A stretch of DNA of 52,698 nt from Bacteroidia bacterium (GTDB lineage: Bacteria > Bacteroidota > Bacteroidia > AKYH767-A > OLB10). Below, one piece after another: positions 25,618 through 37,772 of the stretch; positions within the stretch are counted from its first letter, which is position 1, and each line of letters opens with the position of its first letter. The DNA lies in contig JAGOJO010000011.1 in assembly GCA_017995075.1 (NCBI GenBank), positions 2,331 to 55,028 of the forward strand, read 5' to 3'. The translations under genes and the position numbers were made by a program. The notes below the pieces were generated by a model that saw only the letters and a list, made by a program, of their open reading frames with translations, was not told where the DNA came from and made no database searches.

Positions 25618-26199
25618 ATGAATTGGGAAACATTGATTTCTTACGGAGACAGCATTACGATCGGCTCCAGAACCTATTTGGGTTATCCTGAAATAGCTGG
25701 TGCTATATTAAAAGAAAACACAGCCAAAAACTGGAATGTCATTAATGTTTCAGTGGCTGGATTTACTACCATTCAGCTAGAACGGTTAGTTGCAGAGCGG
25801 ATGGGGCACTTGCGTATAGAACAACCATCTGTATCAACATTGATGATTGGTACAAATGACGCCAAGGCCGCAACTCCTGAGTCTGATTTTAGAATTGCCT
25901 ATGAACAGTTATTGTTAAAGATACGACTTGTCCAGAAAACGCGACATGTAATTTGTATCGGAATTCCGCATTTACAGGAAGGGGTAATGCTTCCTTATGA
26001 ACTTGAAATGAATAGCAGGATTACTGGATATAATGAGATAATCAAATCGCTTTCAGAGGAGAATAATTTGAGGTATTTCGAAATGATTGGCGAAAAAGGA
26101 TTGTTCTTCGATGGAGTCCACCTGAACGAAAAAGGAGTTCATCAATTCGGTAAACAGTTAGCGGGTTTTATATTAAAAATCCGTGGTGTTGAAATCTGA
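25618..26199 (+). CDS. SGNH/GDSL-type hydrolase without signal peptide
   Basis: A 193-residue SGNH-fold enzyme. Block I is SYGDSITIG with the nucleophile S12, block III is IGTNDAK with N80, and block V is FFDGVHLNEKG with D165 and H168, so the catalytic set appears complete. The protein starts straight into the fold and lacks a signal peptide, so it is probably cytoplasmic, unlike most surface esterases. I use the ATG at 25618; an in-frame upstream start would add 14 residues of T-rich leader. It is the first gene of a three-gene unit, 12 bases before the epimerase-flavoprotein fusion, and might remove or transfer an acyl group on an intermediate of that pathway. Confidence 0.8.
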   Translation: MNWETLISYGDSITIGSRTYLGYPEIAGAILKENTAKNWNVINVSVAGFTTIQLERLVAERMGHLRIEQPSVSTLMIGTNDAKAATPESDFRIAYEQLLLKIRLVQKTRHVICIGIPHLQEGVMLPYELEMNSRITGYNEIIKSLSEENNLRYFEMIGEKGLFFDGVHLNEKGVHQFGKQLAGFILKIRGVEI

Positions 26200-26211: not shown

Positions 26212-28599
26212 ATGACCAAGGATTCGATCAGGTGTGTTTTAATTGTTGGAACAAGACCGGAATTTTTAAAAATGCTTCCAGTGATCAGAAGCTTTCAGAG
26301 TCTGATCCCGGCAGAGGAATATACTGTTATTTTTTCCGGTCAACATGCTGATTTAATAAAACATACGGACTCAGATTACCTTCAGTTTATTAATGAGGTT
26401 ATTGATTTCAATAGTAAGGGACTTTCATTGGAGAACTCTTTTTCGAGACTTCAGGAATTAATTGGTATAAAACTGAAAGAGTTCCCGAATCTTGAATTTA
26501 TAATTGTGCAGGGTGACACAAGTACAGCAGCGGCAGGAGCATTGGTTGGGAAATTAATGGGGATTAAGGTTGTTCACATTGAAGCTGGATTGAGAACTGA
26601 TAGTCTAGACCCTTTTCCCGAGGAATTTTATCGGAAGCTGATTACACTTGCCTCCTCATTTCATTTTGCACCAACTTCACTGAGTGCTGAGAAATTATTG
26701 AATGAGAATATCGATTCTGAAAATATCTGTGTAGTAGGAAATACCGGCATTGATCAGCTAAAGTATACTCTTCGGCTTAAAAGTGATACGTTTCCGGTAA
26801 AAGATAAGACCTCCTTGAAGTTTCTGATAACGCTACATCGAAGAGAAAATAATAGCGTAGATTTATCATACTTTATTGATCTGATTAATAGGTTATGTTT
26901 AATTTATCCTGGTGCTGTTTTTAATTGGGTGACTCACCCGTCAATTAATCAGGCAGTTCTGCAATCATCGTTGAATAAAAGTGTCAACTTGATTCCTCCG
27001 ATGAATTATGAAGCCTTTTGTTTATTGCTTAATCATACTGATTTGATGATTACAGATTCAGGAGGCTTACAGGAGGAAGGAGTGGTATTGGGTATTCCAA
27101 TGGTAGTCTACCGAAATAATACCGAAAGACCTGAAGCGCATAAAGCAGGATTTCCGCTAATTATTTCAAAGGATCCTGATTTTATTATTAACGCCATTCC
27201 TGAATTGTTGAAGAGTAACGAAAAGTATAATTATAAAAATGTGTATGGTGATGGCCGTGCAGCACATGATATCATTTATAAATTTTTAGATTGGTTGAAC
27301 ATTGTACCGACCTTTGAAACAGTTGTGGTTGGAGGTGGACCAGGTGGGACGGGCCCGATATTGAGTGCGATTAAAAATGGTCAGTTAGGAAAATTGTCCG
27401 AGAAGGGTCTTGCGGTTATCGAAAAGGGTAGTCATCTTGTGAGGGGCAATCTCACATCTTTTAAGATCAATAGTGATACTTTGGCCAATGTGTTTTTTGA
27501 ATGTTTGGAGGGTGATGTTAACACATTGACTTCATTTGTTGATTTGATGGCGTATAAGGACTTGTTTTCAGAGTATAATGATAGACATATCCCTTTACCA
27601 TTACTTGAGTCCTATCTTGATTTATTGGGAGAAAAGATTGAAATTTTAATCTCAGCGCACAAAAGTAATTTTATATTTTACCATTCAACAGTAGTCTCTT
27701 TAGAGAGAGTGGAAGGAAACAAATGGAAGATAAAGTGCCGATGTAATGGTGGAGATTATTCAATAATTGCTGCAAATGTAATAATGGCTCCTGGTGCTAA
27801 CCCCGTTAAACCGGACTTTAAAAATCTGATTAAGAAGAAGGAAGTAAATGAGTTACTAAAAGGCATTCATCCTGATGCAGTTTTTTATTCAGATGATTTG
27901 TTGAAGGGCTACCTTGATATTATTCTGAATAATCTATTTACTAATCCTGCAGAAAGACCGCCAGTGCTGATATTAGGTGCATCGCATAGCGCATTTTCAT
28001 GTGCATGGTATCTAAAACAGAATTTTAGTAATGATTTTGGTGATGTCCATATTGCAGGTTACGACAACCCTGCTATCTTTTATGCATCAAGCGACGATGC
28101 CTTGATAGATGGTTATACTGACTTCGATCAGCGGGATATTTGTCCTGTTACGGGAAGAGTTTTTCGATTAGGCGGCCTTCGTGGAGATGGGCGGGAGCTC
28201 TATAGAAGGATGAAAGGATTGACAACTCCAATTGTTACGGATGTGAAATTCTGGAATTTGAATTCTGTAGATTTAGATAAATTGAAATCACAACTTTCAG
28301 GAGCACGAATTTGTATAGTAGCCTATGGTTATAAGTTTAATATGCCTGAGGTGATAACCGGAAATGGTACCAGGATTGGTTTTGCCGGTGAAAAAAGCGG
28401 CCATTGGGTTGATCAGTCAAGTCAGCTTGTTAGTGAAGATGGATCTACCATTCAGGGTTTGTATGCAATTGGTCTTTCAACAGGCTTTATTCCTTCCGGT
28501 GAGCTTGGAGGTGAACCTTCTTTTGAAAAACAAACTAATGGTTTATGGTACTATCAGAATTTATTAGGTGGTAAAATTGTTTCTGCTTTAATTGAATGA
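26212..28599 (+). CDS. Fusion of non-hydrolysing UDP-GlcNAc 2-epimerase (WecB-like) and FAD/NAD(P)-binding oxidoreductase
   Basis: One uninterrupted 795-residue frame with two enzymes. Residues 1 to about 360 are WecB-like: VGTRPEFLKMLPVIRSF, then GDTS (D102), HIEAGLRT (E124), FPEE (E138), LHRREN (H209) and ITDSGGLQEEG. The spacing D102-E124-E138 equals that of D95-E117-E131 in E. coli WecB. From residue 368 a flavoprotein starts with VVVGGGPGGTGP (FAD), has IMAPGANP near 530, a second dinucleotide motif LILGASHSAFSCAWYL near 586, YGYKFNMP near 707 and GLYAIGLSTGFIPSGELGGEPS near the end, which resembles the FAD-contacting C-terminus of N-hydroxylating or thioredoxin reductase-like flavoproteins. 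The natural reading is a bifunctional enzyme acting on an N-acetylated sugar. The oxidised substrate is unknown. The following GT4 gene overlaps by four bases. Confidence 0.8.
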   Translation: MTKDSIRCVLIVGTRPEFLKMLPVIRSFQSLIPAEEYTVIFSGQHADLIKHTDSDYLQFINEVIDFNSKGLSLENSFSRLQELIGIKLKEFPNLEFIIVQGDTSTAAAGALVGKLMGIKVVHIEAGLRTDSLDPFPEEFYRKLITLASSFHFAPTSLSAEKLLNENIDSENICVVGNTGIDQLKYTLRLKSDTFPVKDKTSLKFLITLHRRENNSVDLSYFIDLINRLCLIYPGAVFNWVTHPSINQAVLQSSLNKSVNLIPPMNYEAFCLLLNHTDLMITDSGGLQEEGVVLGIPMVVYRNNTERPEAHKAGFPLIISKDPDFIINAIPELLKSNEKYNYKNVYGDGRAAHDIIYKFLDWLNIVPTFETVVVGGGPGGTGPILSAIKNGQLGKLSEKGLAVIEKGSHLVRGNLTSFKINSDTLANVFFECLEGDVNTLTSFVDLMAYKDLFSEYNDRHIPLPLLESYLDLLGEKIEILISAHKSNFIFYHSTVVSLERVEGNKWKIKCRCNGGDYSIIAANVIMAPGANPVKPDFKNLIKKKEVNELLKGIHPDAVFYSDDLLKGYLDIILNNLFTNPAERPPVLILGASHSAFSCAWYLKQNFSNDFGDVHIAGYDNPAIFYASSDDALIDGYTDFDQRDICPVTGRVFRLGGLRGDGRELYRRMKGLTTPIVTDVKFWNLNSVDLDKLKSQLSGARICIVAYGYKFNMPEVITGNGTRIGFAGEKSGHWVDQSSQLVSEDGSTIQGLYAIGLSTGFIPSGELGGEPSFEKQTNGLWYYQNLLGGKIVSALIE

Positions 28600-29798
28600 A
28601 GATACTTCAAGTTTGTTCAAAGGTGTTCTGGCCTGAAAGAGATGGAGGAGCAATTGCTATGTATGCTTTTGCTGATGGTCTTTTGAAAGGAGGAGCTGAG
28701 GTATATTCAATTTGTCTGAATATTGATAAGCTTTATGTTGAACCGGCCTCTATTCCTTCTGATATTTCCAATTCCTTTCACTTACGAACCTTTGATGTTT
28801 CATTGGAGTTTAAACTTGCTGATGTTTTTCTGGCCTTTATGCAATTTAAAAATTATCATGTTTCAAGATTCTTTAGTAGTGAAGTTGAGAATTATATCAA
28901 GGAGTTATTAAGTACTACTGAATTTGATGTTATAGTATTAGAGACTCTGTTTACAGCAGTTTATTTGCCGGTTATCAAGAATAATTCAAAGGCTAAAATT
29001 GTTTTGAGAGCTCATAATGTTGAAGCAGATATTTGGCAACGATTATCAGTTCAGACTTCCGGTGCGCTTCCTAAGTTAAAGTATAGGCTAATGTCACGTA
29101 TGCTCAGAACTTATGAAAGGAGAATTGCTAAGGAAGTTGATGCAGTTTTTTGTTTGACAGATGCTGATACTGCTTATTTCAAAAATAGTATTCAGATACA
29201 AAACGTTTATACAATTCCGCTCAGTATAAATTTGGATCATAGCAATTCTACACCTGATTTTTCAAATCCGGCCTTCTATCATCTCGCTAGTATGGAATGG
29301 TTACCCCATCAGCAGGCAATCGAATGGTTTCTGGAAAAGGTAATTCCCTTTTTAGAGGTTGATAATAATAAACCTCGAATATTCCTTGCTGGCCGTAATA
29401 TGCCTCAAAGGTTTTATAATTATTCAAGTAAATGGTTGACGATTGAAGGCGAGATTGTAAACCCCGGGCAATGGGTCCGTGATAAGAATATTTTGATTGT
29501 ACCTTCTTTTACCGGAAGTGGAGTTCGTGTTAAAATAATTGAGGCACTGGCACGAGGTCATGTGGTTATTACAACTCCAAATGGAACTGAAGGAATTCCT
29601 TACACCAATTGGAAACAGCTTATTGTGGTTGATTCAGCACAGGAGTTTTCAGAGGCGATTCGTTTGTGTAATTCAGACCCTTCATTGTGTTTGGAGATTG
29701 CTAAAAATGCGCAAAAATTAGCGTATCAGTTTTTTAAAAGGGATGTTGTTGGTCAGCAATGTCTGAATATTTTGCGGAATATATCATTGGTAAAATAA
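28596..29798 (+). CDS. GT4-type glycosyltransferase
   Basis: A 400-residue GT-B fold glycosyltransferase. The N-terminal Rossmann part opens ILQVCSKVFWPERDGGAIAMY, a landmark, and the middle has VLRAHNVEADIWQRL. The C-terminal donor-binding half has ASMEWLPHQQAIEWFL, VPSFTGSGVRVKIIEALARG and TTPNGTEGIPY, the last carrying the E-x(7)-E-like region of GT4 enzymes. Similar proteins occur in surface-glycan and sugar-bearing metabolite loci. The start overlaps the stop of the epimerase fusion (ATGA), so the two are coupled, and the unit ends in a perfect 21-bp hairpin. It probably attaches the sugar made by the fusion protein. Confidence 0.82.
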   Translation: MKILQVCSKVFWPERDGGAIAMYAFADGLLKGGAEVYSICLNIDKLYVEPASIPSDISNSFHLRTFDVSLEFKLADVFLAFMQFKNYHVSRFFSSEVENYIKELLSTTEFDVIVLETLFTAVYLPVIKNNSKAKIVLRAHNVEADIWQRLSVQTSGALPKLKYRLMSRMLRTYERRIAKEVDAVFCLTDADTAYFKNSIQIQNVYTIPLSINLDHSNSTPDFSNPAFYHLASMEWLPHQQAIEWFLEKVIPFLEVDNNKPRIFLAGRNMPQRFYNYSSKWLTIEGEIVNPGQWVRDKNILIVPSFTGSGVRVKIIEALARGHVVITTPNGTEGIPYTNWKQLIVVDSAQEFSEAIRLCNSDPSLCLEIAKNAQKLAYQFFKRDVVGQQCLNILRNISLVK

Positions 29799-36665: not shown

Positions 36666-37772
36666 TCATGCAAATACATCAAAACTGTAATGAACGTTTC
36701 TTCCTCCTCCTGCAGGGATAAAGATCTTCAGGTCGGTGAGATGTTGTAAATCGCGTGTAGCAGTTGCTTTTGATGTTTTAGTGATAGCCATATATTTTTT
36801 TGCAGTCATACCACCGGCGAAGCCCTCTGGTCCCTCGTCCAACATACGCTTAATGACCTTTATTTCACGCTCGTTTAGATGGTCCTGGTGGCGATCAAAG
36901 AAACTCATTTTCTTTAGTGTAAAAGCAATCAATTTCTTTGCCCGATGTTGTGCTTCAATAATCACTTTTATAAAATAGTTAATCCACTCTGTAATCTCAT
37001 TGTTTCGCTGGGCTTTCTCCAGTGCCTTATAGTACGTTTTTTTATTAGATTCAATGATCTGGGATAAGCTGAGTAGTAAATGTCGGCCAGAAGTTTGTGC
37101 CAATGCTTTTTCAGCTAGCGCTCTTCCTATCCTTCCATTTCCATCTTCAAATGGATGAATGGATTCAAAATATAGATGAACAATTGCAGCCCTAACCGGC
37201 GCTTCTCTGATTTCACTTTTACCACCAGGTGCAGTATCATTAAACCACTTGATAAACTTTTTCATTCCAGCAGGCACAACTTTCGAGAGTGGTGCTTCAA
37301 AATGAACTTTTTCTTTACCTATTGTTCCCGAAACAACTTGCATGGGTTCCTGGTTTCTGCGCCAAACGCCCGCATTTATTTGTTTGTTTTTTTTCATCAG
37401 AATAAAATGCCAGTTCAACAACATTTTTTCTGTCAACGGAGCCATGAAACTATTGCGTACAACTACTATTAATTCACCAATACCTTGTGCTCTTTGATCT
37501 TTGATTTTTCCAGCTTTGTTATCCAATCCCATCTTGTTCCGGATAGAAGAAAGTACGTCTGGTCGGCTCAATACTTCCCCCTCAATAGCTGATGTTTTAA
37601 TTGCTTCTGCCAGCATCACCTGTAGAATGGTTTCCGTCTGCGCATCATCCGGCATTATTTCAAACATCCCGGCCATGTATGCAGACTCTTCCGAAAAGGT
37701 CTTAAGTGACGCACTTTGCATTGCCAGATTGTAGCTGAATTTTGTCCAGTTTTTTTGCTGCCAGTTGTACAT
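36666..37772 (-). CDS. Fic family protein with N-terminal inhibitory motif and C-terminal winged helix
   Basis: A 368-residue Fic protein, expected to move AMP or another phosphate-linked group from a nucleotide onto a protein hydroxyl. The active motif is complete: HPFEDGNGRIGR at residues 206-217 with H206 and R217. An N-terminal inhibitory helix motif (S/T)xxxE(G/N) is present as T60-S-A-I-E64-G65, which places it in the autoinhibited class II. The N-terminus (YNWQQKNWTKFSYN) is of the DUF4172 type. Residues about 297-352 form a winged helix (EREIKVIKRMLDEG, SKATATRDLQHLTDLKIF) that may bind the inverted repeat just upstream of the gene. No antitoxin gene accompanies it. It is convergent with the PiT gene and bounded by a 23-bp direct repeat, suggesting insertion. 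Confidence 0.93.
   Translation of the reverse strand: MYNWQQKNWTKFSYNLAMQSASLKTFSEESAYMAGMFEIMPDDAQTETILQVMLAEAIKTSAIEGEVLSRPDVLSSIRNKMGLDNKAGKIKDQRAQGIGELIVVVRNSFMAPLTEKMLLNWHFILMKKNKQINAGVWRRNQEPMQVVSGTIGKEKVHFEAPLSKVVPAGMKKFIKWFNDTAPGGKSEIREAPVRAAIVHLYFESIHPFEDGNGRIGRALAEKALAQTSGRHLLLSLSQIIESNKKTYYKALEKAQRNNEITEWINYFIKVIIEAQHRAKKLIAFTLKKMSFFDRHQDHLNEREIKVIKRMLDEGPEGFAGGMTAKKYMAITKTSKATATRDLQHLTDLKIFIPAGGGRNVHYSFDVFA

Follow-up and report, generated by a model that had tools for sequence, protein, structure and literature searches.

A single uninterrupted frame in the 52,698-nucleotide stretch of Bacteroidia DNA analyzed here (the window) joins an epimerase of the WecB type to a flavoprotein (positions 26212 to 28599, plus strand, 795 residues from an ATG start), as seen in the open-frame list and its translation. 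Because this pairing recurs with the same neighbor gene in other bacteria, the fusion probably contributes to an unusual, as yet uncharacterized sugar building block. The explanation that we favor, tentatively and without calling it probable, is a small cassette for tailoring a nucleotide amino sugar: UDP-ManNAc or its deacetylated form would be oxidized, with nitrogen as the likeliest site, before being transferred. An earlier note, made from the sequence alone, had described the frame as such a join, which the frame itself and the TIGR00236 and PF02350 profiles bear out; it knew of no described system with this fusion, and in the papers searched we likewise found no description of the fusion or of N-oxidized UDP sugars.

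Judged by its sequence, the N-terminal half (residues 1 to 360, 26212 to 27291, plus strand) is an active-looking, non-hydrolyzing UDP-GlcNAc 2-epimerase of the WecB type. In profile searches, residues 8 to 356 match TIGR00236 (wecB) at 248.4 bits against a cutoff of 210.15, and residues 36 to 355 match PF02350 at 234 bits. Alignment with PDB chains and with the other cassette epimerases shows that R15, K20, D102, E124, E138, and H209 are kept. The last four, which the earlier note had singled out together with the spacing of D102, E124, and E138 (22 and 14 residues), are invariant in all three cassette epimerases, namely those of the window and of two genomes referred to here as G606 and G461, and so are the GTRPE and HRRE motifs, which align with the solved chains. 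The best solved relatives are all epimerases, with PDB entries 7vza, 7vz6, and 7vyy the closest. The likeness to WecB/MnaA thus covers the whole N-terminal half, above the curated cutoff and with the catalytic residues in place, whereas the window enzyme differs in being fused to a flavoprotein and in its phylogenetic position: four epimerases of cassette-type loci form one clade (support 100/100) to which none of 30 epimerases from the window's own bacterial family belongs, in a tree whose long branches leave its detail unsure.

The cassette is rare, and most genomes searched lack the flavoprotein. In a class-wide draw of 395 genomes, three further genomes gave a strong match to it. G606 carries the same fusion in the same order as a single frame of 803 amino acids on a 7.5-Mb contig, G461 encodes epimerase and flavoprotein as two neighboring genes that overlap by 26 bases, and in G446, apparently the genome that holds locus L035, the flavoprotein lies beside a glycosyltransferase with no epimerase adjoining. 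Three different families are represented by the window, G606, and G461; the two halves are fused in two of these genomes and overlapping in one. The existence of a second fusion and of an overlapping neighbor pair rules out an artifact of assembly or frameshift; neither an artifact nor halves at unrelated loci, the two outcomes named beforehand as speaking against the proposal, was found. No other genome among the 42 searched from the window's order held the flavoprotein, a phylum-wide draw of 395 genomes gave, apart from the window's own genome, nothing stronger than weak, partial matches, and further order and phylum scans, one of which probably largely repeated that phylum draw, added no copies; both the class and the phylum sets are samples. 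Viral contigs and phages gave no match, and a viral or phage origin was rejected on this ground.

The gene directly upstream in the window, G606, and G461 belongs in each case to the same subfamily of SGNH/GDSL hydrolases, with proteins that begin MNWETL and are 44 to 50% identical. The window member (25618 to 26199, plus strand, 193 amino acids from its ATG; PF13472 at 75 bits) is 50% identical to its counterpart in G606 and 44% to that in G461, contains the GDS, GTND, and DGVH blocks, has no apparent signal peptide, and is taken to be cytosolic. Because the same kind of hydrolase precedes in all three genomes, we regard the unit as a cassette of SGNH hydrolase, epimerase, and flavoprotein. 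A strong match to this hydrolase subfamily was found in five genomes of the class draw: the three just named, G640, and G721. In the latter two the hydrolase gene is followed by a glycosyltransferase gene related to TIGR03087, and in G721 a WecB-type epimerase comes next. At L109:5304-7086 and L110:8532-11532 the cassette's SGNH gene stands next to TIGR03087-like glycosyltransferases with no flavoprotein adjoining, and at the second of these there is an epimerase too.

In the window, the fusion is followed by a GT4-type glycosyltransferase gene (28596 to 29798, plus strand; PF13692), whose ATG shares bases with the fusion's stop codon (ATGA). Its product stays below the cutoff of TIGR03087, the model for the PEP-CTERM/XrtA glycosyltransferase (88 versus 316.65 bits), and is 35% identical to the product of the gene after a flavoprotein fragment at locus L036. 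The glycosyltransferase does not adjoin the cassette in G606 or G461.

The C-terminal half (residues about 363 to 795, 27298 to 28596, plus strand), delimited by alignment with nine relatives and by a Foldseek search with a weak model, is by our reading a flavoprotein of the two-domain FAD/NAD(P)H type, probably a monooxygenase, with N-hydroxylation as the likeliest reaction. Both dinucleotide motifs lie where the earlier note had placed them: the FAD motif VVVGGGPGG at residues 372 to 380 (27325 to 27351, plus strand), seen in the sequence and the family alignment, and the NAD(P)H motif LILGASHSA at residues 586 to 594 (27967 to 27993, plus strand), in a region where G-x-S-x-S-A is present in all 10 aligned family members (the window protein and its nine relatives). 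An A-x-G-Y motif, AYGY at residues 704 to 707 (28321 to 28332, plus strand), is likewise kept in 10 of 10.

The resemblance of this half to N-hydroxylating monooxygenases lies at the limit of detection, and the exact class is not proven. The GxGPxN, GxGQSA, and ATGY of those enzymes line up in the window protein with GGGPGG, GASHSA, and AYGY. A profile comparison of the two families spans 337 aligned columns (E of 9e-14) and puts AYGY in register with ATGY. PF13434, the lysine/ornithine N-monooxygenase family, has its cutoff of 21.3 passed by two relatives (L041 at 23.6 and L062 at 26.2); for the window protein no match to it is listed at E values up to 1. The window's flavoprotein half reaches no Pfam cutoff, missing that of Pyr_redox_2 (PF07992, 26.1) with 22.3 or 24.7 bits, a cutoff that some relatives pass. 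A PDB sequence search with this half by itself returned no match, and the PDB sequence searches overall gave weak superfamily matches only. Structure predictions were built on two or three sequences: the weak window model (pLDDT 43, from a two-sequence alignment) had putrescine, ornithine, and cadaverine N-hydroxylases in places 1 to 9 of its Foldseek search, while the weak model of the L035 protein (pLDDT 41.5) found SsDesB, an N-hydroxylase, first and thereafter mostly thioredoxin and ferredoxin reductases.

Compared with known systems, the flavoprotein half resembles SidA/IucD/PvdA (PF13434) in the register of its three motifs and in the top Foldseek matches, but differs in having no asparagine after GxGP, in reading SHSA for GQSA, in missing PF13434, and in belonging to a family fused to sugar enzymes. 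The amino-sugar N-oxidases of nitrosugar pathways catalyze the reaction that we propose, the N-oxidation of a nucleotide amino sugar, yet they share the fold of acyl-CoA dehydrogenases and work with other partner enzymes. FrbG of FR-900098 biosynthesis is a flavin N-hydroxylase that recognizes a nucleotide-activated amine (PMC7347517). We liken it to the cassette flavoprotein by description and in the proposed logic only; its substrate is a CMP aminophosphonate, and no entry so named is among the PDB matches listed.

Relatives of the flavoprotein outside the Bacteroidota have similar partners. In two other phyla it is fused to a DegT aminotransferase, lying N-terminal to it in Granulicella and C-terminal in Sphingomonas, and in both a glycosyltransferase gene follows the fusion. 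The best curated models for the DegT partners are nucleotide-sugar aminotransferases (DesI and PseC), with scores below cutoff. These two plasmid-borne fusions (L037:9932-12634 and L038:8780-11272, respectively) are annotated only as aminotransferases. In Erwinia, Rahnella, and Priestia, free-standing relatives adjoin a gene for a class I-II aminotransferase, and in Erwinia and Priestia this neighbor also shows an NTP-transferase domain; the Shinella relative lies beside a Cys/Met-type PLP enzyme in an NRPS/PKS cluster, and the Tistrella relative beside an ATP-grasp gene. The plasmid gene table is incomplete, and the Tistrella plasmid region L063:3379-8433, which holds this distant relative, the ATP-grasp gene, and transporter-like frames, is unannotated in its record. 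We also observed on a Priestia megaterium plasmid (L041:5506-13610) a flavoprotein relative together with genes for an AAC(3)-like acetyltransferase, an NTP-transferase/PLP fusion, two ATP-grasp proteins, and a DXP reductoisomerase; perhaps the cluster makes a DXP reductoisomerase inhibitor and keeps a resistance copy of that enzyme. A reading of the Erwinia and Priestia loci as FR-900098-like phosphonate clusters was rejected, as no PEP mutase is annotated nearby.

Our main ground for supposing that flavoprotein and partner share a substrate is that the recurring partner either produces or activates an amine or nucleotide sugar. The analysis also unites proteins of several phyla, annotated no further than as hypothetical, SidA-like, or DegT, into a single family connected with the chemistry of sugars and amines. 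We speculate, while regarding it as rather doubtful, that the family as a whole oxidizes the nitrogen of nucleotide-activated amino sugars and is fused to the substrate-making enzyme (2-epimerase or aminotransferase), which would place amino sugars of the N-hydroxy, oxime, or nitroso kind in bacterial surface glycans or in metabolites that carry sugars.

In the window cassette, family membership and intact residues suggest that the epimerase half would convert UDP-GlcNAc to UDP-ManNAc, and the monooxygenase-like, FAD/NADPH-dependent flavoprotein half might then oxidize the sugar that its fusion partner makes, hydroxylation of the nitrogen being the likeliest reaction. UDP-ManNAc bears an amide and not the amine that N-hydroxylating enzymes use. 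The step from N-acetyl sugar to a substrate for an amine oxygenase could be carried out by the cytosolic SGNH hydrolase, which speculatively removes an acyl group, possibly the N-acetyl group, and frees the amine, or deacylates the product later; alternatively, oxidation may occur elsewhere on the sugar. SGNH enzymes are mostly O-esterases. The coupled glycosyltransferase would finally attach the modified sugar either to a glycan at the surface or to a small molecule. The note had suggested that the protein may convert and then oxidize an amino sugar, or a lipid or peptide bound to it; the epimerase and the coupling of the two halves are supported, the latter by the second fusion, the adjacent pair, and the DegT fusions elsewhere, while the flavin chemistry (an oxygenase, acting on nitrogen, with a sugar as substrate) is what we infer. 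If the flavin half does oxidize its partner's sugar, the cassette would provide a route to an N- or C-oxidized amino sugar outside the textbook O-antigen and enterobacterial common antigen pathways, and the fusions indicate which substrates to try first experimentally.

We favor tailoring of a nucleotide amino sugar because of the cassette order in three genomes, the epimerase clade, the DegT fusions in both domain orders, the PLP-enzyme neighbors, the PF13434 matches of two relatives, the Foldseek ranks, the lack of redox cysteines, and the FrbG precedent. It is weakened because the window protein misses PF13434 and lacks the GxGPxN asparagine, the profile comparison does not set N-hydroxylases apart, the models are poor, UDP-ManNAc is an amide, SGNH enzymes are mostly O-esterases, and the glycosyltransferase is not beside the G606 and G461 cassettes. 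Somewhat unlikely in our view is that the flavoprotein, within the two-dinucleotide-binding-domain superfamily, is no oxygenase but works as a dehydrogenase, oxidase, or reductase, for example one that oxidizes an amine or a sugar hydroxyl, or that reduces a partner. Reductase-type groups (thioredoxin-reductase-like and lipoamide-dehydrogenase-like proteins) score as well as or better than the N-hydroxylases in profile comparison (E of 8e-16 and 3e-16), although these groups are not neutral because they were drawn from matches to PF13434, and the Pfam models matched most often are Pyr_redox_2 and Pyr_redox_3. Against this stand the conserved A-x-G-Y, the two relatives above the PF13434 cutoff, the N-hydroxylases at the head of both Foldseek lists, weak as the two models are, and the absence of any CxxC or CxxxxC in all 10 aligned family members. 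A disulfide reductase proper was rejected on this last ground, a reductase or dehydrogenase that works without such a cysteine pair being the separate rival considered here.

It is also conceivable, but unlikely, that the flavoprotein acts on the acceptor, so that N-hydroxylation of an amine, amino acid, or lipid precedes the addition of ManNAc by the coupled glycosyltransferase. This would suit the relatives that lack sugar enzymes and lie in an NRPS/PKS cluster or beside ATP-grasp, PLP, and acetyltransferase genes, as well as loci L035 and L036, where flavoprotein and glycosyltransferase occur with no adjacent epimerase (L036 is cut by a contig end), whereas two epimerase fusions and two fusions to nucleotide-sugar-type aminotransferases point to the sugar as the common substrate. 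The scarcity of the flavoprotein among the genomes searched might even suggest an accident, in which neighbors were joined without common function or by faulty assembly; this we consider highly improbable in view of the second fusion on its long contig, the overlapping pair, the conserved SGNH gene, and the independent fusions to another sugar enzyme.

Membership of the proposed tailoring cassette in an O-antigen cluster was rejected: the genes immediately around it are not sugar genes but a DAHP synthase/chorismate mutase gene and, judged from its sequence, a superoxide dismutase-like gene, and the locus is a small island outside any such cluster. This setting, the conserved upstream hydrolase gene, and the overlapping glycosyltransferase gene had all escaped the earlier note. 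Some 3 kb off, the opposite strand carries a gene for a DUF1972-type glycosyltransferase, which we do not link to the cassette. Farther along the window are a subtilase gene (PF00082, 30827 to 32368) with an apparent lipoprotein signal and, 8 kb downstream of the fusion, a Fic/DUF4172-type gene (36666 to 37772). A gene that looks Fic-like by eye also adjoins the G461 cassette (L098:12223-13341), a parallel with the window that is probably coincidence.
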